Shown: piece by piece, positions 269-49,094 of the stretch
Position numbering within the stretch: position 1 is the first letter of the stretch
Layout: every line of letters begins with the position of its first letter
NCBI GenBank assembly: GCA_016203225.1
Contig: JACQNC010000009.1
Span: 1 to 64,000, forward strand
Direction of reading: 5' to 3'
DNA: 64,000 nt
Origin: Candidatus Woesearchaeota archaeon
GTDB lineage: Archaea; Nanobdellota; Nanobdellia; Woesearchaeales; ARS49
Made by a program: the position numbers and the translations under genes
Notes under the pieces: generated by a model
What the model was told of the DNA's origin: nothing
What the model saw: only the letters and a program-made list of their open reading frames with translations
The model's database searches: none

Positions 269-844
269 GTGGCGAAAAAGGAGAGCGCGCCGAAGGTACA
301 TCCTGATCTTTCTAAAGAGCACGCCGATTTCCTTCACAAATACTTCGCCGACGCGAGCAAGGAAGAGCTTCTCGAGGCGTTCATCGCGCACCTGGCCAAG
401 GAACACGCTCTCTCCCACGCAGAAGTCAACGTTTTGCTCGCTGAAGCCAAACAGCATCAGCAGACCCTGCTGCCTGTCAACATCTTCCAGACGGACGCGC
501 TCTCCTCATTGGAAGCCATAGTCAAGTACCTGAAGGAGAACAAGGGTCTCACGTTCCACGGGATCGCTGCGCTGCTGAAGCGCGACGACCGCACAATCTG
601 GACCACCTACGCGAAGGCGCGCAGCAAGATGGTCGCGCCTTTCCACCTGCCGCCGAGCAAGTACGTCGTGCCTGCCGTGATATTCGCCGAGCGCAACCTC
701 AGCGTGCTCGAGACGCTCGCCCATCACCTCAAGACCACGCTGAACCTCTCGCTGCATGATATCGCGATCCTTCTGAACCGCGATGACCGCACGATCTGGA
801 CCGTGTGCCATCGCGCAGCCAAGAAGCTGGGGGTGAGACCGTGA
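269..844 (+). CDS. Tandem helix-turn-helix DNA-binding protein
   Basis: This 191-residue protein has an alpha-helical N-terminal part and two similar HTH units. Unit one spans about residues 75-125 and contains LLKRDDRTIWTTY; unit two spans about 137-188 and contains LLNRDDRTIWTV. The repeated 'LL-[KN]-RDDRTIWT' core looks like a recognition helix of the sigma-70 region 4/HTH type. The start is GTG at 269, preceded by AGAGGA. It is the first gene of an operon and its stop overlaps the next start (GTGA). A regulatory role on its own palindromic promoter is inferred from position. No metal-binding or effector domain is visible. Confidence 0.75.
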   Translation: MAKKESAPKVHPDLSKEHADFLHKYFADASKEELLEAFIAHLAKEHALSHAEVNVLLAEAKQHQQTLLPVNIFQTDALSSLEAIVKYLKENKGLTFHGIAALLKRDDRTIWTTYAKARSKMVAPFHLPPSKYVVPAVIFAERNLSVLETLAHHLKTTLNLSLHDIAILLNRDDRTIWTVCHRAAKKLGVRP

Positions 845-1410
845 CGAAAGAGCTCCCGCTTTGGGAGAAGATCGCTCTCATCGGCGCGTGGCTTGCCCTG
901 ATGGGAGGATTGACCTGGCTGGTGGCGCTCAAGCCGAGCATCACCGGCTTCGTTCCGAGCGAGACAAGCACGCAAGTGCTCGATGTTGCAGTGACGCAGA
1001 ACACCGACTTCGTGATCAGCACAGAGGACCCCACGTTGATGCTGAACCTCAAGTCGTTCCGCGTCTGGGGCGCGGTGTACGGCCTGGGCAAGGTGCGCGT
1101 CACGCTCGAGAACCTCGATGGCGGACGCCTGCTCGTGTACGCCAACACGCCCAAGCGCGGGCTGGAAACCATAACTGGTTTCGTGAGCCACGAAGGCATG
1201 GCCTCGACGCCTGACGACAAGCTGCGCATAAGGCCGACCGGGCCTGTGTCTGGACAGGACACGCTCGGCAAGCCGACAGAGCTCGTGGACGGCGCGTGCG
1301 TTGAGACGTGCGCTCTGCCGGATTCGTTCAGGTCAGAGGAATACCGCCTCGTGGTCGAGGTCGATGATGGGACCGTGTTCAAACTGGCGAGGGTGAGCTA
1401 CGAAGTATGA
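841..1410 (+). CDS. Small membrane-anchored exported protein of unknown function
   Basis: The product is 189 residues and starts at GTG 841, overlapping the preceding stop codon. Residues about 8-28 form one hydrophobic segment (signal anchor), followed by an extracellular, beta-rich domain of about 155 residues with a CVETC cysteine pair near residue 155. I recognise no family. Its overlaps with both neighbours (GTGA upstream, ATGA downstream) show tight translational coupling with the giant surface protein, so a partner, chaperone or pilot role for that protein is plausible but inferred. Confidence 0.7.
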   Translation: MTKELPLWEKIALIGAWLALMGGLTWLVALKPSITGFVPSETSTQVLDVAVTQNTDFVISTEDPTLMLNLKSFRVWGAVYGLGKVRVTLENLDGGRLLVYANTPKRGLETITGFVSHEGMASTPDDKLRIRPTGPVSGQDTLGKPTELVDGACVETCALPDSFRSEEYRLVVEVDDGTVFKLARVSYEV

Positions 1411-4400
1411 AGCGTGACGCGCTGCTGGGACTGTGGATCGTGATCCTCCTAGCCAGCGCGAGCATCGTGGTCGCGGACTTCAACTCGACGCACTCGCACG
1501 GCATCGCCGCATACTACACAAGCACCAGTCCGACTGTCGTGAAGTACAGGACGTGGAATGCTACTAATGTCACCGCAGAACTGAGCGACGGAACGCTCTC
1601 TGGCGGCCCAGAATGGCTCCTCCTGCACGCGTCACCGCACCGAGACGAGAAGCTAATGGGCATAATCTATGAGAACACCGCCTCTACGCTCGGCATCGCT
1701 GCTGCGCTCACTTGGAACGGCGAGAGCTGGAGCACGGAAACGAACCTGAGCACCGCGATCGGCACCACGAACGACGCCCAACGCGGCTTGGACCTCCAAT
1801 ACTTCAAGGAGGGTGGCAACGCCATGGCTGTGTTCAGCAACGGCACCGCGGACGCCGCATACGCAATCTGGAACGGCTCCGTATGGGCTAACTTCAGCAC
1901 GCTTCCAACTGACGGCTGTACCGGCACCGTGCTCTGGATCGAGCTCGCGCCTGGCGCGAACGGCACGATGTTCGAGATCGACCTCGACGCGAACGGAGAC
2001 ATCTGCGCCAACGTCTGGAACGGCACGGCATGGAACGGCAACGTGACGCTCGAGACCGCCACGACCGCGACGGCCACTAAGCGCATGTCAATCGCGACCG
2101 AGACCCTCTCCGGCGACGGGCTCGCAGTATGGGACGGCACCACCGCAGGAGTCATCGAGATCTGCACGTTCAACTTCACTCAACCACTCTCATCTGCCAA
2201 CTGGTGCACGACAAGCACCGCCACTGCTGATGCCGGACTCGCGCATGAGTACATACGGACGGCGTCGCACGACACGAGCGACCGCATCATGATCATCGGA
2301 GAAGAACGCGCCCAAGCGGACATCAACGCGATCGAATGGAACGGCACCACGCTCGGCGCGTCAGGCGTCCCCACCCAGATAGAAGCGAGCGCAGAGACCG
2401 CGGGTGACGGCCTCGCGGACGTGACGTACACCACGATCAACAACGGCGCCTTGGTCGTCTTCGATGACTCCAACGCGGACAACCCGAGCTATCTGCAGTG
2501 CACAAGCGCGGCGAACTGCTTCGCAGGCACCTGGACAGCGGCGGCGAGCACAGGCATGACAAACTGCGGCGAGGCCCAGGACCTGGACGTCGTGCGGATC
2601 GAGGATGACCCATTCAGCAACCGTTCGATGTTCTATGCGATATCGCAGAACAACCACTACAAGTGCATGCAGCAATGGAACGGCACGGCCTGGGAGACAG
2701 GAGTCATCGGCATAGGCGTGGGCGTGCCTAGCGCGGGCGCAGAGACGTTCGACTTCGCGTTCTCCTACGACGGATTCCAGGACCTCACCCCGCCCACCGT
2801 CAAGCTCATCGCTCCCGCCAACAACAGCAACTTCACCACAGCGGACAGCGTGACGTTCCAGTTCAATGTCTCCGACGCCTCGAGCATCAGGCAGTGCAAC
2901 CTCACGATAAACGGCACGGTCAACCAGACGCTGGCCAACGTCTCGATAAACATGACAGTCAACTTCACGCCCATCGTTTTCAGCACCGGGCGCAGGTCAT
3001 GGAATGTGACGTGCACGGACTACTACAACCTCACGAACACGAGCGAGACTAGACGTTTCAACGTCACGTTCGTGCCTGACACGACAGCTCCTGCGTGGAG
3101 CAACAACGTGAGCTTCCCGACAAGCCCACAGGTGTATCTCGAGAACCGGACATACCAGTTCAACGTAACATGGACAGATACGGGCGGGAGCGGGATCGAC
3201 AAAGTAAAGATTGAGAGCAACTTCACCGGCACGCTCGCCAACATCACGCTCACCGGCGTAGGAACCACTTACAACTACACCACGAGACTCGGCGTAGGCG
3301 GCTACGTCTGGAAGCAGTTTGCGAACGACACGAGCGGCAACCAGAACTCCACGCCAACGATGACGCACACGGTGACGCAGGCCTCGCCGGGTCTGAACAT
3401 AACGGCGAGCCCGAGCGACAATGTGACGTTCGGGACCACGACCACCGTGAGCTGCACCACGAACACGAGTCAGGTCACGATCAGTCTGACAAGGAACGGG
3501 ACATCTGTCGTAAGTCCCGACATCCAGATGCTCAGCGCGGGCGTCTACAACTACTCCTGTACGACCGCGGGTAACCAGAACTTCACGAGCCAGACGCAGA
3601 CAATCAACGTCACGGTCGTGCCCGACACTGCCGCTCCGAGCGTGTTCGACGTCGCGCCGACAGCGGGAACTCAGGTGAACGTCTCGACCACCATCACGGT
3701 CTCCGCGAACGTGACAGACAATGTCAACGTGAGCAAGGTGACTGCGAATGTCACGTTCCCGAACGGCACTGTCCAGACGCTGACACTGATCAATAGCACC
3801 GGCGCGCGCTACAACTCGAGCTTTGCCATCCCTGCGCTGCTCGGCCAGTACAACGTGAGCTACTTCGCGAACGACACGTCCAACAACATCAATGCGAGCG
3901 TCACGACGTTCTTCATAGGCAACGACACCGTGAGGCCGGTCGTGAACGTATCGCGCGCGGCGAACGCGTCCGGATCAACGAACGTCTCGCAAGGCAGCCT
4001 GGTAAACATCACGGCCAACGTGACCGAGATCCATAGCGGGCTGAACTACACGGAATTCTACATCACGTTCCCCGACGGCGTGAACAGCACTTTCTACGAG
4101 ATGAACTGCTCGGGCGCGACGCTCTACCAGTGCAGCTACAACTGGAGCAAGACAACCCAGATCGGGCTCTATCGCGCGAGGTTCACCGCGGTAGACCTCG
4201 CCAACCTGTCCTCGCTCGCCTCTGATCCGGGCGCGAACGTCACGTTCAACGTGTCGTGCAACAACCTCGCGGACAACGTCTGTCCGGGCAGGACCCTCTG
4301 TCCTTCGGACCCTGACTGCGCGTGCACCAACCTCACGTTCTCAGGCACCGCCACGAACTACACGATCGACAACTGCGATATCCGTATCACCGTCGCGCGT

Positions 4401-7400
4401 GCGAACGTCACGTTCACGGGCGACACTTACGACCAGGGCGACGGCGGAGCCGGCACCAAGAATGTCACGGCGCGCATCGGCGACGTGATCGAGCAGTTCA
4501 GCTACTTCATCGGCGTCGACACGTTGTTCCTGCAGCGCGTCGCAGTGATCTACAACAACACGCGCGCCGTCGCGTACAACGGCACGCTGCAGGACATAGC
4601 CATCCTGCAGAACTCGTCGACCGAAGCGGTCCTCAGGACGACGTTCGAGGACGCACAGCTCAGGATCACGACAGACATGCGCATCGTGAACAAGAGCAAG
4701 ACGGTGTCGTACAAGCACACGATCACCAACATCGGAGGTTCGAACGCCACCAATGTCACGCTCAGGATATACAAGGACTACGATATGGACCTGTCCGGCG
4801 CGGGCGCGAACACCCGCGACCAGAAGGACACGTACCGCGTGAGCGACGGCCGCAAGATCCAGCACGTCACGAGCGAAGTCAGGCTCGACGTGAACGAGAA
4901 GGCCGCGTACGCGAATCCTTACTACACCGTGCAGACCGACCAGGCGGGCGCGAAAGTCACAGGAGTGTTCACCGTGGGCCAGTTCGCGTTCGTGGATGTC
5001 GCGCAGGTGAAGCAGAACGAGAGCGAGATCATACCGAGCAGTCCTGTCCTCAACAGCGAAGCGGCGGCGCTCACGGACATCGCAGAGATCTACGCATACT
5101 CCGCAGGCGGGCTCGTGCCGGGCCAGAGCATCGTAATCATCGACGGCAGCGCGTCCAGCGACGATCCAGGAAGCATCGGCGCAGAGGTCGCCAACCTCAC
5201 TGAGTCCTACGCGCTCGTGCTGTTCGACGGCGCGATCCGCAACTCGACAAGCAAGCTCACGAACGTCAGCATAGGTGACCAGTTCAACATCACGGTCGAC
5301 CTGCAGAACACAGGCAACACGAACAGGACGAACCTCACCCTATACGGATTGATCCTGAACAGCACGGGCAGCGTTGTGCGGAACCTGACTCGTGTCGTAA
5401 ATGCGACAGCGAACACCACGCAGGATGACCTCTCCATCGGTCTCACCAATAGCACCGGCCTCACGTCTGGTACATACACAGTCAAGGTCGAGCTCTACCA
5501 GTCAGGCGAACTCAAGGACACGAGCACGTCCACGTTCACCATCATCGACGCGACGCCTCCGAGCATCACCAACGTCGTTACGACTCCTGCGCTGCCGCTG
5601 TTCAACAACGGCACGAGCCAGAACATCAGCATCAACTTCACGAGCGACGAGTTCCCGTTGAACGTCTCGTTCAGGCTTTACAACAGCACCGGCGGACTCG
5701 TTAACCTAACAGGACCGTTCATCGTGAACAGCTCATCGCAACTGCCGCTCACGTTCGTCATACCGGCAGGCCTCGCGGACGGCAACTACACCCTCAACAT
5801 GACAGCGGCGGACAGTTCAAACAACGTGAACACGACGTTCGTCGGCAACATAATCATCGACACCGCAAAACCGAACATCACGAACGTCGTCACGACTCCT
5901 GCGCTGCCGCTGTTCAACAACGGCTCGAGCCAGAACGTGAGCGTGAACTTCACGAGCGACGAGTTCCCGTTGAACGTCTCGTTCAGGCTTTACAACAGCA
6001 CTGGCAGCATCGTGAACCTGACAGGGCCGTTCGTCGTGAACAGCTCATCGCAACTGCCGCTCACGTTCGTCATACCGGCAGGCCTCGCGGACGGCAACTA
6101 CACCCTCAACATGAGCGCCATCGACCGGGCGGGCAACGAGAACGTGACCTTCCTCGGCAACATCACGATCGACACGGTCAAGCCGAGCATCACGAACGTG
6201 ACCACCACTCCTGCGCTTCCGATGACGAACACGGGCCAGACGCAGAACGTGAGCGTGAACTTCACGAGCAGCGAATTCCCGATCAACATCACGTTCTATC
6301 TCTATAATAGCACGGGCGGGATCACGAACATATCCGGGACCACCACCGTGACAGGCGCAGGCCAGCTGCCGCTCACTTACTCGATCCCCGCGGGACTCGC
6401 GGACGGCAACTACACCCTCAACTTCACTTCGATCGACAGAGCGGGCAACACGAACAATACCGCGTTGGGCACGATCATCGTGGATGCCACCGGGCCGAGC
6501 ATGCTGATACCTGTTCCGACAGCTGCTGCTAACTACACCATCAACAGCACGGTATCCATCTCGATCAACGCCACGGACCTGTTCGGCGTCAGCTTCGTAT
6601 ACGCAAACATCACGCTGCCTAACGGCACGGTCCAGACGCTGAACCTCTCGTTGCTGAGCGGCACGATCTATGGAATCAACTTCACCACACTCAACCAGCA
6701 GGGCCGCTACAACATCACTTTCTTCGGTAACGACACAAACGGAAACGTCAACTCCAGCGTGACGACGTTCTTCAACCGCAGACCATACGTCACGAGCTCA
6801 ATGCTGGACATCGTGAATGAGCTGTTCGCGAACATCAACGTCACCACGAGCGTGCTCAGCAACAGTTCAGGCATGCTGACTCTCGAGCTCATCCCGTTGA
6901 ACCACACCATCAAACGCATCGTGGTGTTCAACTACACCGAGAACACCCCATACGGTCTGCTCAAGCTCTCCAACCACACGAACGATTCTGGGTTCGACGG
7001 CAGCTGGGCGGCCGACCTGAGCGAGCTGAACGCGACCTCAATCAACATTACCGTCACTGTGAGCGGCACGACATTCTGGAAGTGCGGCGACTACAACTTC
7101 AGCGCGCTCACGTGCATCGGCGGCTGGAACGAGACGTTCACCGGTCTCACACCGGGCCAGAACGTCACGATCACCCTGACTGCGACCGACCCAGGATTCG
7201 GCGATGGCAGTCCTGACGAGGGCACGCCGGATGCTGGTCAATATGATACGTTCGGCGACGGCGACAGCAGCGTAGTCAACACATTCGTGAGCACGCAGAC
7301 CGACAACGCGGCCTACTTCGCCGCGCGCCGGAACAACGGCGGCGGCGCAAGCCTCGACCTGCAGGTGTTCCTGAACCTCAGCTACAACATAACTCCGCTC

Positions 7401-10400
7401 ATCGCGGCGGGAGTGACGCCGCAGAAGATCACCAATCTCAGCTTCCTCCTCAACTACTGCGCGAACGATGACATAACGGGCGCGTTCACGTGCGGCGGGA
7501 CGGCCATCGGCGGCACCGCGCGCAACCCGCAGACGATCCAGTTGCTGAACGTGACAAGCGGAGTCTACCAGAACGTCAGCACGTACACTATCAGCGACAC
7601 GGATCCCAACGAGTTCAACAAAAGCTTCAGCGTCATCACCGGCGCGAGCGACTTCGTCACCGCCAATAACTTCGTAAACATCCGGTACGGGGTAGACGTC
7701 AACATCACCGCCGCAGGAAACGATGCGGCATTCGGAGCCGACTACGCGCCGATGACCGTCACGTACGACAACCAGGCGCCGAACTTCAGCAACAACGTGA
7801 GCTTCCCTGCCGGTCCTGCGGTCTACAGCGCAGGCCAGGTCTACCAGTTCAACGTCAGCTGGACCGACAACTACACCGGGATCGACCGCGTCGTCATAGA
7901 AGCGAACTTCACCGGCGCGCTCACGAACACCACGCTCACCAACACTAGCAACACGTACAGCCATTCGACCCAGCTCGCGGCCGGCAGCTACACTTGGCGT
8001 CAGATCGCGAACGACACGGTCGGCAACGTGAACTTCACCTCGACGATGGCCTACACCGTGTTGCAGGCCAACAGTGCGCTGAACCTGACGCTCAACGGCA
8101 CGCAGGCGAACATGACCATCACTGCGGGCAGCACAATCAACATCACAGGCAGGACAATTGCGGGCCAGGGCACGCTCGAACTCTTCAGGGATGGTGTGCT
8201 CATCAACAGCGGAAGCTCGCCAATCAGCAACCTGAGCACGTTCGGTTCACCGGGCCTGTTCAACATCACGCTCCGGCTGAACAGCTCGCAGAACTTCACG
8301 GGCAACCAGACGTCATATTTCGTCTCTATCACCGACACCGTCGCACCGACAGTCACTCTGAACAATCCGCCGAACGGCACGAACACCAGCTCGAACGTAG
8401 TGACGTTCAACTGGACCGCGACGGACGACGCGGACACGAGCCTGAGCTGCAGCTTGACTGTCAACGGGACAGTGACAAACAGCAGCGTCGCCAGCGCGAA
8501 CAACACCGCCACGACCGTGAACGTGCAATTCAGCGGCAATGGCACGCGAAGCTGGAACGTCACGTGCACGGATGACTTCAGCAACGCCGGCAACAGCACC
8601 ACGCGCATCTTCACGATCGACCAGATCCCGCCGACGCCGAGCAACAACGTGAGCTTCCCGACGTCACCGCAGGTTTATCTGGAGAACAGGACATACCAGT
8701 TCAACGTCTCGTGGACAGACCAAGTCCTAGCAGTCGACAAAGTGGTGATAGAGAGCAACTTCACCGGCGCGCTCACAAACATCACGTTGACGCCCATAGG
8801 AACGACGTACAACTACACGACACAACTCGCGGTCGGAGGCTATGTCTGGCGCCAGATCGCCAACGACACGGTCGGCAACACGAACACCACCACAACGATG
8901 ACGTACACGGTCACGCAAGCCACGCCCGGATTGAACATCTCGGCATTGAGCGGCGGAACCGTGACGTTCGGCAGCCAGCTCAACGCGACGTGCGCGAGCA
9001 ACAGCAGCCAAGTGACGCTCAGCCTGCTGAGGAACGGAACCGCAGTCAGCAACCCCGACACCACCGTCCTCGCCGCGGGCACGTACAACTACACCTGCAA
9101 CACAACCGGAAGCCAGAACTTCACTGCAAACACGCAAACAATCATCGCGACAGTCAATCAAGCGACCGCGGTCGTCAACCTCACCATCAACGCCACAGAC
9201 GGCAACTTCACAATCGACCAGTTCACGAACGCGAACCTCACGGCGGTGATCGTCACGGGCGTCGGCAACATCGACATCTTCCGCAACGGCACCGCCGTAG
9301 CTACGGGCGCCAGTCCGCTGTCTTCGATCGTCGCGTTCAACCAGGCGGGCGTGTTCAACATCACGGCGCGCCTCAACGAGAGCCAGAACTACACTCTCGC
9401 GACCGACACGCACTACATCACTGTCAACGACAAGCAGGCGCCGAACTTCAGCAACAACGTGAGCTTCCCGACGTCGCCGGTCGTGTACGACTCGTCAGCG
9501 ACGTACCAGTTCAACGTGACCTGGTCGGATAACGTCGCTATCGACAAGGTCTGGATCGAGCACAATTTCAGCGGAACGCTCACGAACGTCACGCTCGCCG
9601 GCGTCGGAAGCACATACAACTTCACGTTCGGGCCTTTGGCTGCGGGGACCTACATCTGGAGACAATACGCGAACGACACGAGCGGAAACACAAATGTCAC
9701 GCAAACGTTCTTCTACACCGTGCTGCAGGCCAACAGCACGCTCAACCTGACACTGAACGGCACGCAGGCGAACATCAGCACAACCACGGGTGGCGTCGTC
9801 AACATCACCGGCCAGTTCATCTTGGGTCAGGGCACGCTCGAACTGTTCAACAATGGGACGCTCATCAACAGCGGCAGCGGCATCTTGAGCAACCTGACGA
9901 CTTTCAGCACGATCGGGGTCTATAATATCACGCTCCGGGTCAACAACACGCAGAACTTCACGGGCAACTTCACTACTTATTTCGTGATTGTGACCGACGC
10001 TGCAGCACCGAGCGTGACGCTCAATAGCCCGGTCAATGGGTTCAACACGAGCAGCAATATCGTGACGTTCAACTGGACGGTCACGGATGACACGGACACG
10101 AGCTTGAGCTGCGACCTGCGCATCAACGGGACAGTCACGAACTCCAGCATCGCGAGCCCGAACGGCACTGCGACGGCAGTTAACGTGCAGCTCGCCAGCA
10201 ATGGCACGCGAAGCTGGAACGTCACGTGCACGGATGATTCACTGAACACCAACACGAGCGTCACGCGGACGTTCACTATCGACCAGATACCGCCCACGCC
10301 GAGCAACAACATCAGCTTCCCGACATCACCATCCGTCTACTTGGAGAACCAGACATACCAGTTCAACGTCTCGTGGACCGATCAAGTCCTCGCCGTGGAC

Positions 10401-13400
10401 AAAGTGGTGATCGAGAGCAACTTCACAGGTGTGCTCACGAATATCACCCTCGCTGGAGTCGGAACGACGTACAACTACACCACACAACTCGCCGCAGGAG
10501 GCTACGTCTGGCGCCATATCGCGAACGACACGGTCGGCAACACGAACACCACCACAACGATGACGTACACCGTAACGCAAGCCACGCCCAGCATCAACAT
10601 CACGGCTGTGCCCTCGGACAATGTGACTTTCAACACTATCGTGAACGTGACGTGCGTCAGCAACAGCAGTCAGGTCGCGCTCGGCCTGTTCAGGAACGGC
10701 ACCGGAATCAGCAATCCCAATAGCGCCAACCTCACGCCAGGTGTATACAACTACACCTGCAACACCACAGGCAACCAGAACTTCACCAGCAACAGCCAAA
10801 GCGTCCTTGTCACGGTCAACAAAGCCACCGCAGCCGTCAACCTCACCATCAACGGCATAGATGCTGACACGAGCGCGACGAATGGAAGCATCGTGAACTT
10901 CACGGCCACCCTCGTGACGGGCGCGGGCAACATCGACCTGTTCAGGAACGGCACGCTCATCGCATCGGGCGCGTCGCCGTTGGAGAACCTCAGCAACATC
11001 ACGATCGAGGGATTGTACAACATAACGGCGCGCGTGAACGAGAGCCAGAACTTCACTTCGGCGTTCGAGACGCATTTCCTGACCATCACGCCGGCAAACA
11101 ATTCCGCGCCCGTTGTCACGCTGAACGCGCCTGCCAACAACACTGTGTCCAACAACACGCGTTCGGTGCTGTTCAACTGGACCGCGACGGACGATCTCAC
11201 GACGTCCTTGACGTGCCGCTTGTTCATCGATGGCGTGCTGAACGCGACCAACACGAGCACGAACAACACGCCTACGACGCTGAACGTGACTGGTTTCACA
11301 GTAGGCACGAGAACGTGGTTCGTGAACTGCACTGACGGCACGAACGCGAACGTCTCGGGCACGCGGACGTTCACGATCAACGACACGCAGGCGCCGAACT
11401 TCAGCAACAACGTGAGCTTCCCCACATCACCGGTCGTCTACCTGGAGAACCAGACGTACCAGTTCAACGTCAGCTGGAGCGACCTGTTCGGAATCGGCGT
11501 CGTCAGGATAGAGAGCAACTTCACGGGTGTGCTCGCGAACATCACGCTCACAGGCGTCGGCGACACGTACAACTATACCACGCAGTTGGCAGTTGGAACG
11601 TATGTCTGGCGCCAGATCGCGAATGACACCAACGGCAACCAGAACGCCACAACAACGATGACGTACACCGTCACGCAAGCAACACCCAGCCTAAACCTGA
11701 CTCTCAACGGCACGCAAGCCAACCTGACCGTCACGACGGGAAGCACGATCAACATCACGGGCAGGATCATCACCGGCGTAGGCAACCTGGACCTGTTCAG
11801 GAATGGCACACTGATCAACACAGGCGGTTCGCCGTTGAGCAACCTGAGCGTGTTCGGCACGCCGGGACTGTACAACATCACGCTCAGGCTGAACGGCACG
11901 CAGAACTTCACGGGCAACTTCAGCACGTTCTTCGTGACCGCTATAGACAACACCACGCCGAGCGTGACGCTGAACAATCCGCCGAACGGTTTCAACACGA
12001 GTTCGAACGTAGTGACGCTCAACTGGACCGCCTCGAACGGAGACGATCCGATACTGAACTGCAGCGTCAACGTGAACGGAACGTATACAAACATCTCTGT
12101 GGACAGCCCGAACGGTACGGCGACTACCGTGAACGTCGCATTCACGGGCAACGGAACGCGGAGTTGGAACGTCACGTGCAGCGACGATGCTGCGCTGACG
12201 AACTTCAGCGTGACGCGGACATTCACGGTGGACCAGATCACTCCGACGCCGAGCAACAACATCAGCTTCCCGACATCGCCGCAGGTCTATCTGGAGAACA
12301 GGACATACCAGTTCAACGTAACCTGGGCAGACCAAGTGCTTGCTGTGGATACAGTGAGGATTGAACAGAACTTCACAGGAGTACTGACTAACGTAACGTT
12401 GACGCCCATAGGAACGACGTACAACTACACGACACAACTCGCGGTCGGCGGTTACGCATGGCGCCAGATCGCCAACGACACGGTCGGCAACACGAACACC
12501 ACAACCACGATGACGTACACCGTCACGCAAGCCACGCCCGGACTTAACATATCAGCATTGAGCGGCGGAACAGTCACGTTCGGAAACCAGCTCAACGCGA
12601 CCTGCACGAGCAACACCAGCCAAATCACATTCAGCCTATTGAGGAACGGAACCGCAGTCAGCAACCCCGACACCACCGTCCTCGCCGCAGGCACGTACAA
12701 CTACACCTGCAACACCACCGGCAACCAGAACTTCACTGCCAACAGCCAGACCAACATCCTGACCGTCAATCAAGCGGCCGCCACGGTCAACCTCACCATC
12801 AACGCCACAGACGGCAACTTCACCGCAGAGAACGGCAGCATCGTGAACTTCACGGCCACCCTCGTCACGGGCGTCGGCAACATCGACCTGTTCAGGAACG
12901 GCACGCTCATCGCATCTGGAGCGTCGCCGTTGAGCAACTTGAGCAATATCACCGGCGTGGGCGTTTACAACATCACTGCGCGCGTTAACGCCAGCCAGAA
13001 CTACACGGCCACGACCGACACCCACTTCCTGACTATCGTTGCGGCGTTCTTAAACACCGCTCCAATAATCACGCTGAACGCGCCTGCCAACAACACCCAG
13101 ATCAACAACACGCAGATCGTGACGTTCAACTACACCGCGACGGACGACTTCAACGCGTCGTTCTTCTGCACACTGAACATCAACGGCACCGCGAACACGA
13201 CGAATCTGACCGTGAACAACACTCCGACGCTCGTCACGCTCACGACGCTGCCTTTCGGGAGCAGTTCCTGGAGAGTGAACTGCACCGACAACGCGAGCCT
13301 GCCGCTCGCGACCACGAGCGGGACGCGGTTCTTCAGCATCAATGACACCGCGATACCTAGCGTGAGCACGATATTCCCGACGAGCGCCAATGAGGACGTG

Positions 13401-16079
13401 GCTACGAACTTCACGGCCAACGCGAGCAACGGCGCGGGGATCGCGTCGTGCAACCTGTTCATCAATGGGACGAACAACGGCAGCATGACCGTCTCTGGAG
13501 GCCTAGCGAACAGGAGCGTCACTTTCGCCCAGCCTGGGACGTACATCCTGCTCGCGAACTGCACCGACCTGAGCGGCAACGTGAACGACACGAGCAACAC
13601 GACCGTGACGATCCTGGACGTCACCGCACCGACCGTGACCATCATCAGTCCGATCGCGACCGTCTATACGAACACGTCGGTGTTCATCAATCTCACGTCA
13701 TCTGACAACGTGGCGGTCAGCACAATCTATTACAGGTACAATGACAGCCTTGGGAACCTGAGCGCGAACTTCACCTACAATGTAACCCACTTCAGGACTT
13801 TCAGCGATAACAGCACCGTGACGCTCACGGCGTTCGCGAATGACACCTCAGGCAACAACGCGTCCGCGGCGGTGACGTTCAGCGTCAACGTGAGCGCTGC
13901 GCCCGACAACACCAGCCCTGCGATATCCGGAATCAACGTCAGCAACATCACGAACCAGTCCGCGAGGGTCAACTGGACGACGAATGAGGGCTCTAACAGC
14001 ACGGTGCTCTATGGCACGAACGCGTCTAATCTCAACCTGACGAACGGCTCCTCCTCGCTCGTGACCGCGCACTCGATCGTGCTCGTGAGTCTGAACAACA
14101 ACACGCAGTACTTCTTCAACGTGACCAGCTGCGACTCGAGCGCCAACTGCAACAGCACAGGCATCTTCAACTTCACCACTCTGCAGACCTTCGACCTCAT
14201 CGCGCCGACCGTCATCAGCCAGGCGCTATTCCCGCGCGCAGTGATCCGCGGCAAGGGTGTGCAGATGAACCTTTCCGCCACGGACGACATCGCGGTCGAC
14301 AAGAGCCTCGCGAACGTCACTCTGCCCAACGGCAGCGTAGTGCTGCTCACGCTGAACACGACATACACGACCGTTATCGAAGGCAGGCACAACGTGACGT
14401 TCTTCGTGAACGACACCGGCGGCAATCTCGGGTTCGGCAATGACACATACTTCATCGTGGCGAATGCGACGAACTACAGCAAGAACGTGACCGATTTCAA
14501 CAACACAGGCATCCCCGTCGTGGAGCGGATCACGTTCCCTGGCACAGACGACGTCATAAACAGCAGTATCACGTTCACGGGCACCGTCGTGCAGGAATTG
14601 CCTGACACGCCCATGGACTACGTGTTCGATACTCACAGCTCGATGCTCAACGTGGAGTTCCGCGAATTGAACATCAGCAACTGCACAGGCGTAAGGCTCG
14701 GCATGGATCTCTTGCCCTCTCCAGTGACCGGTTACCTGGTGAGCTATGGCGTCGTGCACGCCTGCAGCTTCGCCAATGCCGAGGTGCATGTCGCGTACAA
14801 CGGAACAAGCGTCACTACTGAGAGCAACCTGCACATCGATGTGTGCAGTTCGTGGGATTTCGCGAACAGGACCTGCACGGGCAGTTTCACAGAGGTCTCT
14901 GGCGCGTTCCAGAACACGACGGGCGACTACTTCGCGTTCAACGTGACTAGCTTCAGCGGATTCAGCATCCGCGAGACTGCAGCAGGAGGCGGTGGAGGCG
15001 GAGGCGGCGGCGGTGGAGGCGGAGGCGGAGGCGGCGGACCGCCCGCGGTGCCTCCTGTAGTCACTCCGCCCTACGTGCCGGTCGTGCCTGTGTTGCCCTT
15101 CTGCGAGGAGACCTGGGTGTGCGACGACTGGGACGCATGCGCCGACGGAGTGCGGACGCGCACGTGCGAGGACGAGAACTACTGCGGTACGACCGATGAT
15201 CAACCGCAACAGGCAGAGGCCTGCGCGCCGCCCGAGGAGCCTGGCGTGCTGCCTCCGTTCGAGATCATCGCGAAGTTGGGGCTGGCCGACCTGCTGAGGG
15301 TCTGGCTGCCCGTGATAATCGGCATCCTGGTGTCCGCGTTGGTGCTCGCGCTGTTCATCTTCCTGTACATCGAACGTCAGGAGTTGATCGTCTCGCACGA
15401 AGTCCACATAATGGCAGAGGAGAACGAGATACTCGTGCCTGGTGAGTTCGTCATGCTTGCCGATCGCGTCCTGGACAAGATATTCACCGCGACGCCTGAC
15501 GAGCATCTCTGGCATCGCCTGTACGCGCAGTATCCTCCGCTGGTGGTCAGGATCTGCCGGCTTGTGCTGCTGGACGCGAGCCGCGACCTGAAGAAGTGGG
15601 CCGAGCGCAAGGAACCTGTGCGGATCGAACAGCACTATGAATACATCGGTTACAGGACGTTCGTCTCTACGGTGCGAGCGCTGGTGCGCGCGAAGCTGGT
15701 GGGGATCCCTGTGCACGTCGTCTCGAAGGAGGGCAAGATGAGACGACCTCCCGGCAAAGGGTACGAGGTGATCGATGAGTATCCTGAGGTGAAGAAGGAG
15801 GAGACGCACCATCCGGAGAAGGTCCCGATCCAGACGATGGCCCTGGCCAACCACGCTGATGTCAAGCGCGCGCTGCAGCTGCTGAGGCAGGGTCCTGGTC
15901 TGATGGTCTTGAGCATAGACGGACTCCACGAAAAGGGAGGGAACGCGCTGCGGACGGCCGTGAAGAGATTGCGGCACACCGCGCAGGCGACAGAGGGGGA
16001 TATCATAAGCATGAGCACGAGCTGGATCGTCGTGACGAACGGCATCCCTATCGAGAAAAAATACCACAAACGGAGGTGA
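1407..16079 (+). CDS. Giant Ig-repeat surface protein with transmembrane segment and C-terminal SepF-like domain
   Basis: The product is 4890 residues. Residues 1-23 are a signal peptide. About 25-455 are beta-rich with repeated W/NGT motifs (propeller-like). From about 460 to 4520 there are many Ig/HYR-like modules, seven containing NNVSFPTSP-type strands (near 567, 2128, 2412, 2681, 2968, 3331, 3616). N-X-S/T sequons are extremely dense, so heavy N-glycosylation is expected. A poly-Gly stretch (about 4527-4544) leads to a Cys/Trp stalk (C-x4-W-x-C-x2-W-x3-C, about 4560-4595) and a transmembrane helix (about 4632-4655). The cytoplasmic part is about 235 residues; its last 80 (about 4806-4885) resemble SepF: ADVKRALQLL, LMVLSIDGLHEKGGNALRTA, GDIISMSTSWIVVTNG. 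SepF tethers FtsZ to the membrane in many archaea. The SepF assignment is from pattern recognition; a division role is inferred. It overlaps its upstream gene by ATGA. Confidence 0.85.
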   Translation: MKRDALLGLWIVILLASASIVVADFNSTHSHGIAAYYTSTSPTVVKYRTWNATNVTAELSDGTLSGGPEWLLLHASPHRDEKLMGIIYENTASTLGIAAALTWNGESWSTETNLSTAIGTTNDAQRGLDLQYFKEGGNAMAVFSNGTADAAYAIWNGSVWANFSTLPTDGCTGTVLWIELAPGANGTMFEIDLDANGDICANVWNGTAWNGNVTLETATTATATKRMSIATETLSGDGLAVWDGTTAGVIEICTFNFTQPLSSANWCTTSTATADAGLAHEYIRTASHDTSDRIMIIGEERAQADINAIEWNGTTLGASGVPTQIEASAETAGDGLADVTYTTINNGALVVFDDSNADNPSYLQCTSAANCFAGTWTAAASTGMTNCGEAQDLDVVRIEDDPFSNRSMFYAISQNNHYKCMQQWNGTAWETGVIGIGVGVPSAGAETFDFAFSYDGFQDLTPPTVKLIAPANNSNFTTADSVTFQFNVSDASSIRQCNLTINGTVNQTLANVSINMTVNFTPIVFSTGRRSWNVTCTDYYNLTNTSETRRFNVTFVPDTTAPAWSNNVSFPTSPQVYLENRTYQFNVTWTDTGGSGIDKVKIESNFTGTLANITLTGVGTTYNYTTRLGVGGYVWKQFANDTSGNQNSTPTMTHTVTQASPGLNITASPSDNVTFGTTTTVSCTTNTSQVTISLTRNGTSVVSPDIQMLSAGVYNYSCTTAGNQNFTSQTQTINVTVVPDTAAPSVFDVAPTAGTQVNVSTTITVSANVTDNVNVSKVTANVTFPNGTVQTLTLINSTGARYNSSFAIPALLGQYNVSYFANDTSNNINASVTTFFIGNDTVRPVVNVSRAANASGSTNVSQGSLVNITANVTEIHSGLNYTEFYITFPDGVNSTFYEMNCSGATLYQCSYNWSKTTQIGLYRARFTAVDLANLSSLASDPGANVTFNVSCNNLADNVCPGRTLCPSDPDCACTNLTFSGTATNYTIDNCDIRITVARANVTFTGDTYDQGDGGAGTKNVTARIGDVIEQFSYFIGVDTLFLQRVAVIYNNTRAVAYNGTLQDIAILQNSSTEAVLRTTFEDAQLRITTDMRIVNKSKTVSYKHTITNIGGSNATNVTLRIYKDYDMDLSGAGANTRDQKDTYRVSDGRKIQHVTSEVRLDVNEKAAYANPYYTVQTDQAGAKVTGVFTVGQFAFVDVAQVKQNESEIIPSSPVLNSEAAALTDIAEIYAYSAGGLVPGQSIVIIDGSASSDDPGSIGAEVANLTESYALVLFDGAIRNSTSKLTNVSIGDQFNITVDLQNTGNTNRTNLTLYGLILNSTGSVVRNLTRVVNATANTTQDDLSIGLTNSTGLTSGTYTVKVELYQSGELKDTSTSTFTIIDATPPSITNVVTTPALPLFNNGTSQNISINFTSDEFPLNVSFRLYNSTGGLVNLTGPFIVNSSSQLPLTFVIPAGLADGNYTLNMTAADSSNNVNTTFVGNIIIDTAKPNITNVVTTPALPLFNNGSSQNVSVNFTSDEFPLNVSFRLYNSTGSIVNLTGPFVVNSSSQLPLTFVIPAGLADGNYTLNMSAIDRAGNENVTFLGNITIDTVKPSITNVTTTPALPMTNTGQTQNVSVNFTSSEFPINITFYLYNSTGGITNISGTTTVTGAGQLPLTYSIPAGLADGNYTLNFTSIDRAGNTNNTALGTIIVDATGPSMLIPVPTAAANYTINSTVSISINATDLFGVSFVYANITLPNGTVQTLNLSLLSGTIYGINFTTLNQQGRYNITFFGNDTNGNVNSSVTTFFNRRPYVTSSMLDIVNELFANINVTTSVLSNSSGMLTLELIPLNHTIKRIVVFNYTENTPYGLLKLSNHTNDSGFDGSWAADLSELNATSINITVTVSGTTFWKCGDYNFSALTCIGGWNETFTGLTPGQNVTITLTATDPGFGDGSPDEGTPDAGQYDTFGDGDSSVVNTFVSTQTDNAAYFAARRNNGGGASLDLQVFLNLSYNITPLIAAGVTPQKITNLSFLLNYCANDDITGAFTCGGTAIGGTARNPQTIQLLNVTSGVYQNVSTYTISDTDPNEFNKSFSVITGASDFVTANNFVNIRYGVDVNITAAGNDAAFGADYAPMTVTYDNQAPNFSNNVSFPAGPAVYSAGQVYQFNVSWTDNYTGIDRVVIEANFTGALTNTTLTNTSNTYSHSTQLAAGSYTWRQIANDTVGNVNFTSTMAYTVLQANSALNLTLNGTQANMTITAGSTINITGRTIAGQGTLELFRDGVLINSGSSPISNLSTFGSPGLFNITLRLNSSQNFTGNQTSYFVSITDTVAPTVTLNNPPNGTNTSSNVVTFNWTATDDADTSLSCSLTVNGTVTNSSVASANNTATTVNVQFSGNGTRSWNVTCTDDFSNAGNSTTRIFTIDQIPPTPSNNVSFPTSPQVYLENRTYQFNVSWTDQVLAVDKVVIESNFTGALTNITLTPIGTTYNYTTQLAVGGYVWRQIANDTVGNTNTTTTMTYTVTQATPGLNISALSGGTVTFGSQLNATCASNSSQVTLSLLRNGTAVSNPDTTVLAAGTYNYTCNTTGSQNFTANTQTIIATVNQATAVVNLTINATDGNFTIDQFTNANLTAVIVTGVGNIDIFRNGTAVATGASPLSSIVAFNQAGVFNITARLNESQNYTLATDTHYITVNDKQAPNFSNNVSFPTSPVVYDSSATYQFNVTWSDNVAIDKVWIEHNFSGTLTNVTLAGVGSTYNFTFGPLAAGTYIWRQYANDTSGNTNVTQTFFYTVLQANSTLNLTLNGTQANISTTTGGVVNITGQFILGQGTLELFNNGTLINSGSGILSNLTTFSTIGVYNITLRVNNTQNFTGNFTTYFVIVTDAAAPSVTLNSPVNGFNTSSNIVTFNWTVTDDTDTSLSCDLRINGTVTNSSIASPNGTATAVNVQLASNGTRSWNVTCTDDSLNTNTSVTRTFTIDQIPPTPSNNISFPTSPSVYLENQTYQFNVSWTDQVLAVDKVVIESNFTGVLTNITLAGVGTTYNYTTQLAAGGYVWRHIANDTVGNTNTTTTMTYTVTQATPSINITAVPSDNVTFNTIVNVTCVSNSSQVALGLFRNGTGISNPNSANLTPGVYNYTCNTTGNQNFTSNSQSVLVTVNKATAAVNLTINGIDADTSATNGSIVNFTATLVTGAGNIDLFRNGTLIASGASPLENLSNITIEGLYNITARVNESQNFTSAFETHFLTITPANNSAPVVTLNAPANNTVSNNTRSVLFNWTATDDLTTSLTCRLFIDGVLNATNTSTNNTPTTLNVTGFTVGTRTWFVNCTDGTNANVSGTRTFTINDTQAPNFSNNVSFPTSPVVYLENQTYQFNVSWSDLFGIGVVRIESNFTGVLANITLTGVGDTYNYTTQLAVGTYVWRQIANDTNGNQNATTTMTYTVTQATPSLNLTLNGTQANLTVTTGSTINITGRIITGVGNLDLFRNGTLINTGGSPLSNLSVFGTPGLYNITLRLNGTQNFTGNFSTFFVTAIDNTTPSVTLNNPPNGFNTSSNVVTLNWTASNGDDPILNCSVNVNGTYTNISVDSPNGTATTVNVAFTGNGTRSWNVTCSDDAALTNFSVTRTFTVDQITPTPSNNISFPTSPQVYLENRTYQFNVTWADQVLAVDTVRIEQNFTGVLTNVTLTPIGTTYNYTTQLAVGGYAWRQIANDTVGNTNTTTTMTYTVTQATPGLNISALSGGTVTFGNQLNATCTSNTSQITFSLLRNGTAVSNPDTTVLAAGTYNYTCNTTGNQNFTANSQTNILTVNQAAATVNLTINATDGNFTAENGSIVNFTATLVTGVGNIDLFRNGTLIASGASPLSNLSNITGVGVYNITARVNASQNYTATTDTHFLTIVAAFLNTAPIITLNAPANNTQINNTQIVTFNYTATDDFNASFFCTLNINGTANTTNLTVNNTPTLVTLTTLPFGSSSWRVNCTDNASLPLATTSGTRFFSINDTAIPSVSTIFPTSANEDVATNFTANASNGAGIASCNLFINGTNNGSMTVSGGLANRSVTFAQPGTYILLANCTDLSGNVNDTSNTTVTILDVTAPTVTIISPIATVYTNTSVFINLTSSDNVAVSTIYYRYNDSLGNLSANFTYNVTHFRTFSDNSTVTLTAFANDTSGNNASAAVTFSVNVSAAPDNTSPAISGINVSNITNQSARVNWTTNEGSNSTVLYGTNASNLNLTNGSSSLVTAHSIVLVSLNNNTQYFFNVTSCDSSANCNSTGIFNFTTLQTFDLIAPTVISQALFPRAVIRGKGVQMNLSATDDIAVDKSLANVTLPNGSVVLLTLNTTYTTVIEGRHNVTFFVNDTGGNLGFGNDTYFIVANATNYSKNVTDFNNTGIPVVERITFPGTDDVINSSITFTGTVVQELPDTPMDYVFDTHSSMLNVEFRELNISNCTGVRLGMDLLPSPVTGYLVSYGVVHACSFANAEVHVAYNGTSVTTESNLHIDVCSSWDFANRTCTGSFTEVSGAFQNTTGDYFAFNVTSFSGFSIRETAAGGGGGGGGGGGGGGGGGGPPAVPPVVTPPYVPVVPVLPFCEETWVCDDWDACADGVRTRTCEDENYCGTTDDQPQQAEACAPPEEPGVLPPFEIIAKLGLADLLRVWLPVIIGILVSALVLALFIFLYIERQELIVSHEVHIMAEENEILVPGEFVMLADRVLDKIFTATPDEHLWHRLYAQYPPLVVRICRLVLLDASRDLKKWAERKEPVRIEQHYEYIGYRTFVSTVRALVRAKLVGIPVHVVSKEGKMRRPPGKGYEVIDEYPEVKKEETHHPEKVPIQTMALANHADVKRALQLLRQGPGLMVLSIDGLHEKGGNALRTAVKRLRHTAQATEGDIISMSTSWIVVTNGIPIEKKYHKRR
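3100..12790 (+). repeat. Seven related Ig-module coding repeats inside the giant gene
   Basis: Modules begin near 3105, 7789, 8640, 9448, 10309, 11398 and 12252. Each encodes NNVSFP followed by VY, TYQFNV and [ST]W, then NFTG, TYNYTT, GxYxWRQxANDT and TxTMTYTV. The blocks near 8636-9175 and 12245-12790 are similar enough at the DNA level (long identical runs, for example over the ACGCCCATAGGAACGACGTA stretch) to suggest recent duplication or gene conversion. Repeats keep the reading frame. Confidence 0.8.
14985..15041 (+). repeat. GGN triplet repeat encoding poly-glycine linker
   Basis: About eighteen consecutive GGN codons (GGA/GGC/GGT) encode a glycine linker between the Ig-repeat stalk and the Cys/Trp stalk module. 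Slippage here would change linker length in steps of one residue without a frameshift. The second giant gene has a shorter run at about 30382-30405. Confidence 0.85.
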
Positions 16080-16083
16080 CTGC

Positions 16084-16383
16084 ATGGGACTATTCGATTG
16101 GCTGAGCTCCGACGGCAAGATGATCAGGGAGAAGATCATCGTGACGCAACGTACGCGGATCTCGGCATTGGAACAGGAACTGAACGAGATAAAGAAACTG
16201 CATGACAAGAAGGAGGACGAACTTAACAGGACGCGTGACTCGCACGAACGCTCCAAGGAACGCCTGATCGAGCAGATCGTGAAGCTCAGCGACAAGTTCG
16301 CCGGACTGAACGAGCGCTCGATGAACGTCGCGCACGAGAACGCGCGCCTGAAGCTGTTGTTGCACCAGAAGAAGGGGAAGTGA
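16084..16383 (+). CDS. Small coiled-coil protein with SepF-like N-terminal membrane-targeting motif
   Basis: The 99-residue protein begins MGLFDWLSSDG, which resembles the amphipathic membrane-targeting start of SepF (MGLFDKLFG type). The rest, about 25-95, is a charged coiled coil with no SepF core. The start ATG lies 5 bp after the stop of the giant protein, whose own SepF-like domain lacks this N-terminal motif, so the two halves of a SepF architecture sit in adjacent genes. GGAGGTGA overlaps the end of the giant gene and supplies a strong ribosome binding site. Function in division or surface-protein placement is inferred only. Confidence 0.7.
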   Translation: MGLFDWLSSDGKMIREKIIVTQRTRISALEQELNEIKKLHDKKEDELNRTRDSHERSKERLIEQIVKLSDKFAGLNERSMNVAHENARLKLLLHQKKGK

Positions 16384-17094
16384 CTATGCGTGCCATGTCG
16401 TGGCTGTCGCGCGCTCATACTGTGCGATGGCGGTCATCAGGTCGGAGTGAGCCGCGCCCTGTAGGCTGGCCACTGAACATTCGGGAGCCGCGAGGTAGTC
16501 TTGCATGGGCCGGATGACCTCAGTCGTATACGCGGAGAGCTTGCCGTTTGCCCGCATCGCGAGACGGCGCCCTTTGCCGTTCGGCACGAAAGTGCGTTCT
16601 GCGAGGCCTGTCTCGATGAGCGCTTCGAGGAAGTCGCTCACCTGTTTGACTGTGAGGTCTGCGGCTGTCGAGAGTTCCTGCACGGTCGCGCCATCATGGC
16701 TTGCAAGGAGGCAGCGGACATGACCTTCGAGGTTGCCGCGCATCGCGAACAGGCGGCTGATTGGAACGCCATGCTCGAGCGAATTGGACAGCCTGAACCG
16801 CGCGAATGGTGCGAGGATTTTGCCTTCGGAGTTCAGACTGAAACGCGCGGATCTGGGCGAGTACTCGGCTTCGACATAGGGCGCGAGGGACGCGTTGGGA
16901 TTCATGTTGGTGCAAATGTGGTACCGCAATGCGTTTGGAGTTCCAGGCACACGGCTGGTGCCCACCAACTCTTCAGCGTCGGAATGGAGCTCGCCCACGG
17001 TCTTGGGTTCGTCTCCGAGAAGGTAGCCTGCCAACAGGCATTTGAGTTCTGAATCAGTGGCTCGCAGGAGAGCCTCAGCAGCATCATTGACCAT
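16384..17094 (-). CDS. Winged-helix transcriptional regulator-like protein
   Basis: The product is about 236 residues. The N-terminal third (LLRATDSELKCLLAGYLLG, then SRVPGTPNALRYHI) looks like a homing-endonuclease-like or DNA-binding helical region. A clear winged-helix stretch follows at about 125-175 (VRCLLASHDGATVQELSTA, then KQVSDFLEALIETGLAERTF). I chose ATG at 17094; a GTG two codons upstream (17100) is possible, but the shared leader GTGAGTGAAG then becomes coding. It converges with the coiled-coil gene before it (end-to-end, no gap). The target is unknown. Confidence 0.65.
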   Translation of the reverse strand: MVNDAAEALLRATDSELKCLLAGYLLGDEPKTVGELHSDAEELVGTSRVPGTPNALRYHICTNMNPNASLAPYVEAEYSPRSARFSLNSEGKILAPFARFRLSNSLEHGVPISRLFAMRGNLEGHVRCLLASHDGATVQELSTAADLTVKQVSDFLEALIETGLAERTFVPNGKGRRLAMRANGKLSAYTTEVIRPMQDYLAAPECSVASLQGAAHSDLMTAIAQYERATATTWHA

Positions 17095-24396: not shown

Positions 24397-24696
24397 GTGA
24401 GCCCAAAAGAGGAGTCGAGGATTGAAACCAAACAGCAGGGTTCTCCCTGTCCTCAGAACGCGACAGCAAAAGTCATTTTCACGTATGCGATCGAGCACCT
24501 ATCCAAGACCGACAAGGTGCGATTCTATTATGCGCTGAAAGGCCGCGACGGAAAGACCGGCATCGTGAAACAATGGAGCATCGAGCAGCTCGGTCGCGCG
24601 GTGCTGCTCGTGCCTGAATCGCACGAGAACGACGTGCGTGATTTCCTCGCGTTCTGGAAGTGCGCGTTCAACTCGCGGCGGGTGTGGCTAGTATGA
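24397..24696 (+). CDS. Small protein of unknown function before the beta-helix surface protein
   Basis: The 99-residue protein starts at GTG 24397, very close to the predicted transcript start (leaderless). Residues 20-99 are likely one alpha/beta domain (VIFTYAIEHLSKTDKVRFYY, then GIVKQWSIEQLGRAVLLVP). No signal peptide or clear HTH. Its stop overlaps the next ATG (ATGA). By position it parallels the HTH gene of the first giant operon, and could be the regulator that binds the GTTAA operators, but that is inference. Confidence 0.6.
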   Translation: MSPKEESRIETKQQGSPCPQNATAKVIFTYAIEHLSKTDKVRFYYALKGRDGKTGIVKQWSIEQLGRAVLLVPESHENDVRDFLAFWKCAFNSRRVWLV

Positions 24697-48023: not shown

Positions 48024-49094
48024 ATGGACTTTATCGTGGAAAAGGCTGCGCAAATGCAGCAACGGGACGAAGATTTGAACGTCGGGCAGGCAAACATCAA
48101 GGTCATCGGCTGCGGTGGCGGTGGCAACAACATGGTCACCTGGCTGTACAAGCGCGGCATCAAGGGTGCCGAGATCATCGCTGTCAACACCGACCAGCAG
48201 CATCTCAAGATATCAGAGGCCGACAAGAAATTCCTGATCGGCAAGGACGTCACGCGCGGACTTGGTTGCGGAGGATTCCCCCAGAAGGGAGCCGAGGCAG
48301 CGCAGGAATCCGCGAACGAGCTCAAGGCCACGCTCAAGGGTTCTGACATGGTCTTCGTCTGCGCAGGCATGGGCGGCGGCACCGGAACAGGTTCCGCTCC
48401 GATCGTCGCGCAGATCGCGAAGGACATGGGCGCGATAGTCATCGGCACGGTCACGATGCCGTTCAAGATCGAACGCGCACGCGTCGATAAGGCCGAGTTC
48501 GGCTTGGCGCAACTGCGCAAGTCGTCCGACACGGTAATCGTGATCGACAACAACCGCCTCGTGCAGATCGCAGGGAACCTGCCGATCCAGCAGGCGTTCG
48601 CTGTCGCTAACGAGCTGATCTCGACGATGATCCGCGGTATCGTAGAGACGATCGCGATCCCGTCGCTGGTCAACCTCGACTTCGCCGACGTCAGGGCTAT
48701 AATGACGAACGGCGGCGTCGCGGCCATCGGTGTCGGAACGTCCGACACGAACAGCCGCGTCGAAGAGGCTGTCCGTGGCGCGCTCGAGAACCCGTTGCTC
48801 GACATCAACTACGAGGGCGCGACAGGCGCGCTCATTCACGTTGTAGGCGGACCCGACATGACCCTGGAGGAGATCAACCGCGCAGGCGAGTTGATCACCG
48901 ATGCGTTGGACGAGGATGCCAACGTAATCTGGGGCGCGCGAGTGCAAGACGAGATGAAGGGCAAGTTCATGGTGATGACCATCATCACCGGTGTTTCGAG
49001 CCCGTACATCACCGGCGCTTCCAACATCAAGAAGGAAGCCGCTGCCAAGGCAGTGAAGATGTCAGACGAGCTCGGTATCGAGATCGTGCATTAA
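48024..49094 (+). CDS. ftsZ: Cell division GTPase FtsZ
   Basis: The 356-residue tubulin homologue has the glycine-rich IKVIGCGGGGNNMV (25-38), NTDQQHL, the tubulin signature MGGGTGTGSAP (about 116-126) and the synergy-loop region NLDFADVRAIMTNGG (about 213-227) containing the catalytic Asp. The C-terminal tail is very short, ending DELGIEIVH, so a long SepF/FtsA-binding tail is not obvious. Strong ribosome binding site (GGGGGAG). It is transcribed alone, followed by a hairpin-T-run terminator. A SepF-like domain is on the giant surface protein at 1407-16079. Confidence 0.96.
   Translation: MDFIVEKAAQMQQRDEDLNVGQANIKVIGCGGGGNNMVTWLYKRGIKGAEIIAVNTDQQHLKISEADKKFLIGKDVTRGLGCGGFPQKGAEAAQESANELKATLKGSDMVFVCAGMGGGTGTGSAPIVAQIAKDMGAIVIGTVTMPFKIERARVDKAEFGLAQLRKSSDTVIVIDNNRLVQIAGNLPIQQAFAVANELISTMIRGIVETIAIPSLVNLDFADVRAIMTNGGVAAIGVGTSDTNSRVEEAVRGALENPLLDINYEGATGALIHVVGGPDMTLEEINRAGELITDALDEDANVIWGARVQDEMKGKFMVMTIITGVSSPYITGASNIKKEAAAKAVKMSDELGIEIVH

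Follow-up and report, generated by a model that had tools for sequence, protein, structure and literature searches.

The window, as we call the whole stretch of 64,000 nucleotides analyzed here, belongs to a genome assembly of 1.0 Mb in 15 contigs. It carries a giant surface-protein gene whose features are collected in Table 1, together with the gene directly behind it and an FtsZ gene on the same stretch. The layout that the earlier note had read from the protein (signal peptide, Ig-like repeats, Cys/Trp stalk, one transmembrane helix, and cytoplasmic tail) agrees with hydropathy, Pfam, and sequon counts. The ectodomain matches the bacterial Ig-like domain families Big_7 (1.8e-9) and Big_13 (3.7e-19), as well as DUF4625, while its first part, residues 24-460, had no PDB sequence match at an E value of 1 or below. 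All 375 N-glycosylation sequons lie N-terminal to the transmembrane helix and none in the cytoplasmic tail, against an expectation of 125.6 ± 9.9 from shuffled ectodomains. An extra hydrophobic window at residues 3874-3892 (19 residues, mean of 1.64) was rejected as a transmembrane segment, being weak and inside the repeats. The cytoplasmic tail of about 235 residues comprises two domains, a juxtamembrane domain and a SepF core. The gene product is thus best described as a putative bitopic surface glycoprotein, presumably oriented with the SepF core at its inner end. Opposite the tail of the gene runs an antisense open frame of 730 aa (14226-16418, minus strand), which probably reflects the high GC3 of the giant gene (0.83) rather than a gene of its own.

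Table 1. Features of the fusion locus and of the proposed FtsZ partner (positions in the window)
Feature	Positions	Strand	Basis or remark
Giant surface protein, 4890 aa, single ORF, ATG start	1407..16079	+	Sequence
Signal peptide, residues 1-23	1407..1475	+	Hydrophobic stretch at 5-23 (mean hydropathy of 2.6)
N-terminal ectodomain region, residues 24-460	1476..2786	+	PDB sequence search
Ig-like/FN3-like repeats, residues ~461-4500, N/T/S-rich and sequon-rich	2787..14906	+	Pfam, sequon count
Poly-glycine linker, about residues 4527-4544	14985..15038	+	Sequence
Cys/Trp stalk CEETWVCDDWDAC...C, residues 4566-4606	15102..15224	+	Sequence and motif
Transmembrane helix, about residues 4631-4655	15297..15371	+	Hydropathy windows 4620-4638 and 4640-4658
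Juxtamembrane cytoplasmic domain, residues 4664-4795	15396..15791	+	Kept in four fusions and two SepF-less surface proteins
SepF core domain, residues 4806-4890	15822..16076	+	Sequence searches, PDB profile, structure model
Coiled-coil protein, 99 aa, 4 bases after the fusion stop	16084..16383	+	Conserved neighbor in G001 and G011
FtsZ ending in ...SDELGIEIVH, similar to the archaeal GID-type SepF-binding motif	48024..49094	+	Proposed partner, direct or indirect

SepF tethers the division ring to the cell membrane, and FtsZ-bearing archaea use a cytoplasmic SepF for this anchoring. The earlier note had proposed that the last 80 residues of the giant protein look like the SepF core, and sequence searches bear this out. 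Used as a single query, the 260-residue tail matched 88 of 96 genomes (its own included) at an E value of 0.01 or below; the matches were nearly always SepF-sized open frames of 129-219 residues, which, leaving aside the fusions and one spurious frame (G091:C4), aligned to about residues 157-249 of the query with E values of 1.8e-10 to 6.1e-5. Compared singly by BLASTP with the canonical SepF of its own genome, the tail is 29% identical over 86 residues without gaps (E = 3e-10). A profile of 39 stand-alone SepFs, run against the 1160 open reading frames of at least 30 residues in the window, clearly matched only the giant frame (3.1e-14 and 6.6e-13, in two overlapping pieces; next frame, 0.025). 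Across the four fused tails that we describe below, the same profile gave 5e-15 to 3.5e-9, against 0.16 for the best of 2000 shuffles. For this profile, duplicates (L039 and L040, of L017 and L029) were dropped and the fused frames were kept apart and excluded.

Since the 39 canonical SepFs were gathered with the fused tail as bait, and are not a blind sample, the Pfam family PF04472 serves as an independent check. It is the top Pfam family for all four fused tails, with every score below the 27-bit cut-off (26.5 bits in G256, 23.1 in G001, 16.8 in G011, and 14.0 in the window). This Pfam comparison, which the earlier note had named as a check, therefore leaves the window's tail under the threshold: for the last 85 residues, PF04472 is the only family listed (E = 0.063); with a fragment of 107 residues, SepF (0.12) stands beside DUF6631 (0.13); and with one of 249 residues, no Pfam family is listed. 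NCBIfam gave no family for the tail, nor for canonical SepF. A single-sequence search of the PDB yielded three weak matches, the first two SepF-like (3ZIG, 0.34, and 3ZIE, 0.73), and a profile of the four fused domains brought 3ZIE to 1.9e-6 and 3ZIG to 0.0027. The 3,4-dihydroxy-2-butanone 4-phosphate synthases that follow in the profile search (E = 0.0058 onward) match over some 25 residues and were set aside as unrelated chance hits.

Structure prediction agrees with these searches. An AlphaFold2 model of the 227-residue cytoplasmic part, built from three sequences, has a mean pLDDT of 73.9 and a pTM of 0.48; within its SepF part, the means of ten-residue blocks lie at 72-89 as far as residue 220, beyond which the final seven residues are poorly modeled. 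The modeled order, beta-alpha-beta-eta-alpha-beta-beta, is that of SepF, the short eta helix included. The comparison with SepF structures that the earlier note had called for came out in favor of its proposal: rows 1-18 in Foldseek (best E value, 1.3e-4) are all SepF structures, from P. furiosus, A. fulgidus, C. glutamicum, B. subtilis, and M. smithii, and so are rows 1-12 in VIA (Z of 11.7-8.8, rmsd of 1.7-3.8, 72-83 residues), if we count 3P04, which is titled "BCR protein" and which we take to be SepF. The next VIA row is an IF3-like design (Z = 7.6), and other IF3-like folds follow at lower values. There is accordingly only a very slim chance that the resemblance to SepF is accidental and the tail an IF3-like alpha/beta domain of different origin: SepF ranks above the IF3 rows in VIA and fills the first 18 Foldseek rows, the four fused proteins share SepF-specific sequence homology, and an IF3-like identity was rejected by Foldseek, VIA, the 39-SepF profile, and the PDB profile alike. 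It is nearly certain that the terminal 85 or so residues share ancestry with SepF and adopt its fold, the latter as seen in the predicted model.

The same architecture recurs in relatives, where the earlier note had suggested looking for it. Among the matches listed, it occurs in 4 of the 352 genomes of the order, spread over two families: the window genome (G000), G001, G011, and G256. A profile of the full tail matches 312 of the 352 genomes in the order and 25 of 26 in the family, of which three have the fusion (G000, G001, and G011) and 22 a stand-alone SepF. In the order, open frames longer than 800 residues were found among the matches listed only in the four genomes named, and the remaining frames span 130-203 residues; a low-scoring SepF fusion lacking the juxtamembrane domain could escape among the matches listed for these 352 genomes. 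The second SepF matches in G067 and G279 are frames of 136 and 198 residues and not fusions, and a match in G091:C4 (E = 0.0046) was dropped, as its 931-residue frame reads by eye as a leucyl-tRNA synthetase. The G256 frame (4177 residues), from the other family, has Ig-like repeats, the Cys/Trp stalk, a transmembrane segment, the juxtamembrane domain, and SepF. In G001, which belongs to the genus of the window genome, a 710-residue version with a signal peptide and without the stalk lies whole on one contig; compared with the 4890 residues of the window protein, length thus differs by a factor of about seven, with the tail retained throughout.

Two of the fusion holders are groundwater metagenome-assembled genomes, the G256 frame overruns its contig end, and only 51 bases separate the start of the G011 frame, which has no signal peptide, from a contig end; an assembly or frameshift artefact is nevertheless rejected, and has practically no probability left, given that the order of juxtamembrane domain then SepF is common to four genomes, one of them from another family, and that the G001 protein is complete with its signal peptide within a single contig. 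The finding of the same architecture in four genomes of two families is not what an assembly accident would produce.

The juxtamembrane domain gives a hint of how the fusion may have arisen. Its profile matches 7 of the 352 genomes of the order at an E value of 0.01 or below: the four fusions, G035, G261, and G139, the last of which we dropped (E = 0.006; a 126-residue frame that does not look like a membrane protein). In the phylum sample, 5 of 371 genomes match, all among the order matches, and in the class a wider profile finds 2 of 378, again both among the order matches. The proteins of G035 (L061 4493-6403, 636 residues) and G261 (L062 3333-5297, 654 residues) resemble the window protein in their signal-peptide-like start, ectodomain, transmembrane segment, and juxtamembrane domain, and the Cys/Trp stalk is also present in G035; they differ from it in ending directly after the juxtamembrane domain, without a SepF core. 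Behind the surface gene of G035 comes a long frame, K/E-rich and coiled-coil-like. AlphaFold2 models the domain well (pLDDT of 83.3, pTM of 0.76), and the model finds no significant relative in the PDB by Foldseek (best E value, 1.4) or in VIA (best Z of 3.2, rmsd of 4.6 over 66 residues), an absence that does not amount to a new fold. Our reading is that SepF was joined onto a pre-existing surface-protein chassis.

How does the fused copy relate to the SepF that anchors the Z ring? The window genome encodes a separate canonical SepF on another contig (G000:C8:60447-60653), with the usual N-terminus, and so do G011 and G256, so that three of the four fusion holders have one; in G001, which is 74% complete, no separate canonical SepF was found. 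This makes the fused copy an extra paralogue, dispensable for basic Z-ring anchoring. It also divides the verdict on the earlier note's interpretation: SepF homology, fold, and recurrence stand, while the division reading is weakened by the separate SepF, a condition that the earlier note had itself named. Sequence and fold of the core are shared with archaeal SepF (PF04472; M. smithii 7AL1/7AL2, A. fulgidus 3ZIE, and P. furiosus 3ZIG). However, whereas a canonical SepF is a small soluble protein made of an N-terminal amphipathic helix, a linker, and the core, the fused copy is an extra, strongly diverged core forming the C-terminal tail of a 4890-residue transmembrane protein, and for this position we do not class it as a canonical SepF.

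In a tree of 43 SepF sequences, the fused domains occupy one side of a branch (support, 95/87). Their end branches are very long, however (3.3-10, where the median is 0.32), and the bootstrap had yet to stabilize, so that this grouping is provisional and may partly reflect long-branch attraction. The fused SepF may provisionally be seen as a fast-evolving paralogue that was duplicated from the canonical SepF and then diverged. Of 45 positions conserved to at least 85% in the 39 canonical SepFs, only 5 carry the same residue throughout the four fused copies; F11, N31, P34, A62, and P73 are gone in all four and R45 in three, and the eta1 region is shorter in two. Some of the lost residues fall within the alpha2/beta3/eta1 region described as FtsZ-binding in PMC8178401. 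Basic residues of alpha2 are kept at positions 44 and 51 in all four copies, at position 49 in two, and at position 45 in one, while position 52 is K or R in three and His in the remaining one. The beta5 segment is likewise retained and resembles that of 3ZIE; it is of an I-P/K-I-E-K-K type in two copies and of a related type in the others.

On the side of FtsZ, the window genome has four tubulin/FtsZ-family genes (window 48024-49094 and G000 contigs C8, C11, and C7), three of whose products end in an LGIE-type C-terminus; the C7 protein does not. According to PMC8178401, the C-terminal GID motif of archaeal FtsZ sits in the groove formed by alpha2, beta3, and eta1, and R130, K115, and R118 of M. 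smithii SepF are the residues in contact with FtsZ. We propose that the transmembrane helix of the window protein would take the place of the amphipathic membrane-targeting helix of canonical SepF, leaving the ectodomain outside, and that the cytoplasmic SepF domain would dock the protein to the FtsZ division apparatus. Docking could proceed through binding of the LGIE/GID-type C-terminal peptide of FtsZ, or else through pairing with canonical SepF via the beta-sheet/beta5 dimer face, an indirect route that is possible. We infer dimerization, binding to FtsZ or SepF, and a mid-cell location for the fused protein; dimerization looks likely as judged from sequence, the beta5 segment, which is swapped in archaeal dimers, being recognizable. 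Either route may result in a giant adhesin or coat protein concentrated at the division site; alternatively, the surface layer and the Z ring might set each other's position, in the manner of streptococcal MapZ.

That the fused SepF docks the surface protein to the divisome in some way, presumably by attachment to the FtsZ ring, strikes us as slightly better than an even bet. In its favor, we count the SepF homology and predicted fold, the recurrence of the fusion, the common branch of the fused domains, the retained beta5 segment and basic alpha2 positions, and the LGIE ends of three of the four FtsZ-family proteins; against it, the canonical SepF in three of the four holders, the strong divergence, and the Pfam scores under the cut-off. 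The full reading, that of a giant glycosylated adhesin tied across the membrane by a transmembrane SepF to the FtsZ ring, as a division-coupled surface protein, asks for more, and we give it a probability of about 0.4. If it is correct, an ultrasmall, probably host-associated archaeon would place or partition a surface organelle by division, or position its division from outside, and the protein would be the first archaeal coupler between the outside and the Z ring.

The strongest competing explanation, which we hold to be a real but lesser possibility than divisome docking, is that the SepF core now serves a new purpose, as a cytoplasmic homodimerization or scaffold module that clusters adhesins and has lost its contact with FtsZ and the divisome. 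Rapid evolution, with many canonical residues gone while some fold-defining ones and beta5 stay, is what such a module might be expected to display, and a canonical SepF is kept beside the fused copy. Furthermore, the juxtamembrane proteins of G035 and G261, which have no SepF, indicate that the base system works without it. Against this explanation, some basic alpha2 positions persist in each of the four fused copies, and the known partners of SepF are divisome proteins.

MapZ, which acts in walled bacteria, is the nearest functional analogue, though a functional one only: the streptococcal protein shares with the window protein a single transmembrane helix and an extracellular domain. As reported in PMC7055233, the cytoplasmic part of MapZ interacts with FtsZ, and its extracellular domain is C-terminal; the orientation is thus opposite to that of the window protein, and the interaction with FtsZ, reported for MapZ, is predicted here. 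A stricter parallel, in which the fused SepF would be a positive site marker upstream of FtsZ and the surface layer would dictate the site of the Z ring, draws on PMC8178401, which compares SepF with MapZ, describes archaeal SepF as fully cytoplasmic, and supposes a further partner; the window protein has the membrane-spanning part that such a SepF lacks. We consider such a marker improbable, since the rarity of the fusion in the order (4 of 352 genomes among the matches listed) argues against a general positioning system.

The division-coupled surface protein touches two questions, namely, what positions SepF and how constriction and the surface coat are coordinated. PMC8187382 supposes another anchor for FtsZ1, and PMC7157517 places the S-layer glycoprotein and its anchoring enzymes at mid-cell in Haloferax. 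A SepF core on a transmembrane surface giant is a directly testable candidate for a link between coat and division. In agreement with the earlier note, which knew of no described example, searches of the open-access PMC literature brought up no described case of a SepF fusion or of a surface-linked SepF; "SepF" and "Woesearchae" occur together there only in PMC11944275, which concerns extracellular vesicles and mentions each once. The combination of a SepF core with a transmembrane surface giant is thus a real and recurrent architecture of a few Woesearchaeota, undescribed as far as the searches of open-access PMC show.

The coiled-coil gene directly behind the fusion might encode a partner of the fusion protein, though the case is weak. 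Its product is 80% (G001) and 45% (G011) identical to counterparts that also stand directly behind the fusion, and in the family it is present in 3 of 26 genomes, exactly the fusion holders. In the order, it occurs in 6 of 344 genomes, including three without a detected fusion. The G071 copy sits 145 bases away from where its contig stops, and the G055 contig that holds the coiled coil also carries a giant Ig-repeat frame truncated by the contig end ahead of its tail; with both contigs breaking off there, only G258, whose neighborhood lacks the fusion, is a clear case. Conversely, G256, a fusion holder with 88% completeness, yielded no coiled coil. A strict partnership therefore fits the family and is unsupported in the order. 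The earlier note had further proposed that this gene supplies a SepF-like amphipathic N-terminus, which we do not confirm: the helical moment of 0.32 equals the background (mean of 0.31), on a measure by which four real SepF N-termini (0.31-0.40) likewise do not stand out. In two genomes of family f31, G258 and G055 (L088, L089, and L091), the coiled coil has as a near neighbor a frame that reads by eye as a P-type ATPase.

Two other genes of the window deserve mention. The product of 22518-23756 (minus strand), a 412-residue protein starting with MGFFQRLFG and coiled-coil-like by eye, has no Pfam family over the cut-off and an N-terminal helical moment of 0.23, not above background. At 24660-32972 (plus strand), a second giant surface protein of 2770 residues contains right-handed beta-helix repeats (Pfam Beta_helix, 2.6e-36; NosD, 3.2e-26) and an alpha/beta hydrolase match below the cut-off (PF12697, 9.4e-5); by eye, it has a Cys/Trp stalk of the same type, transmembrane segments, and a short coiled-coil-like tail.
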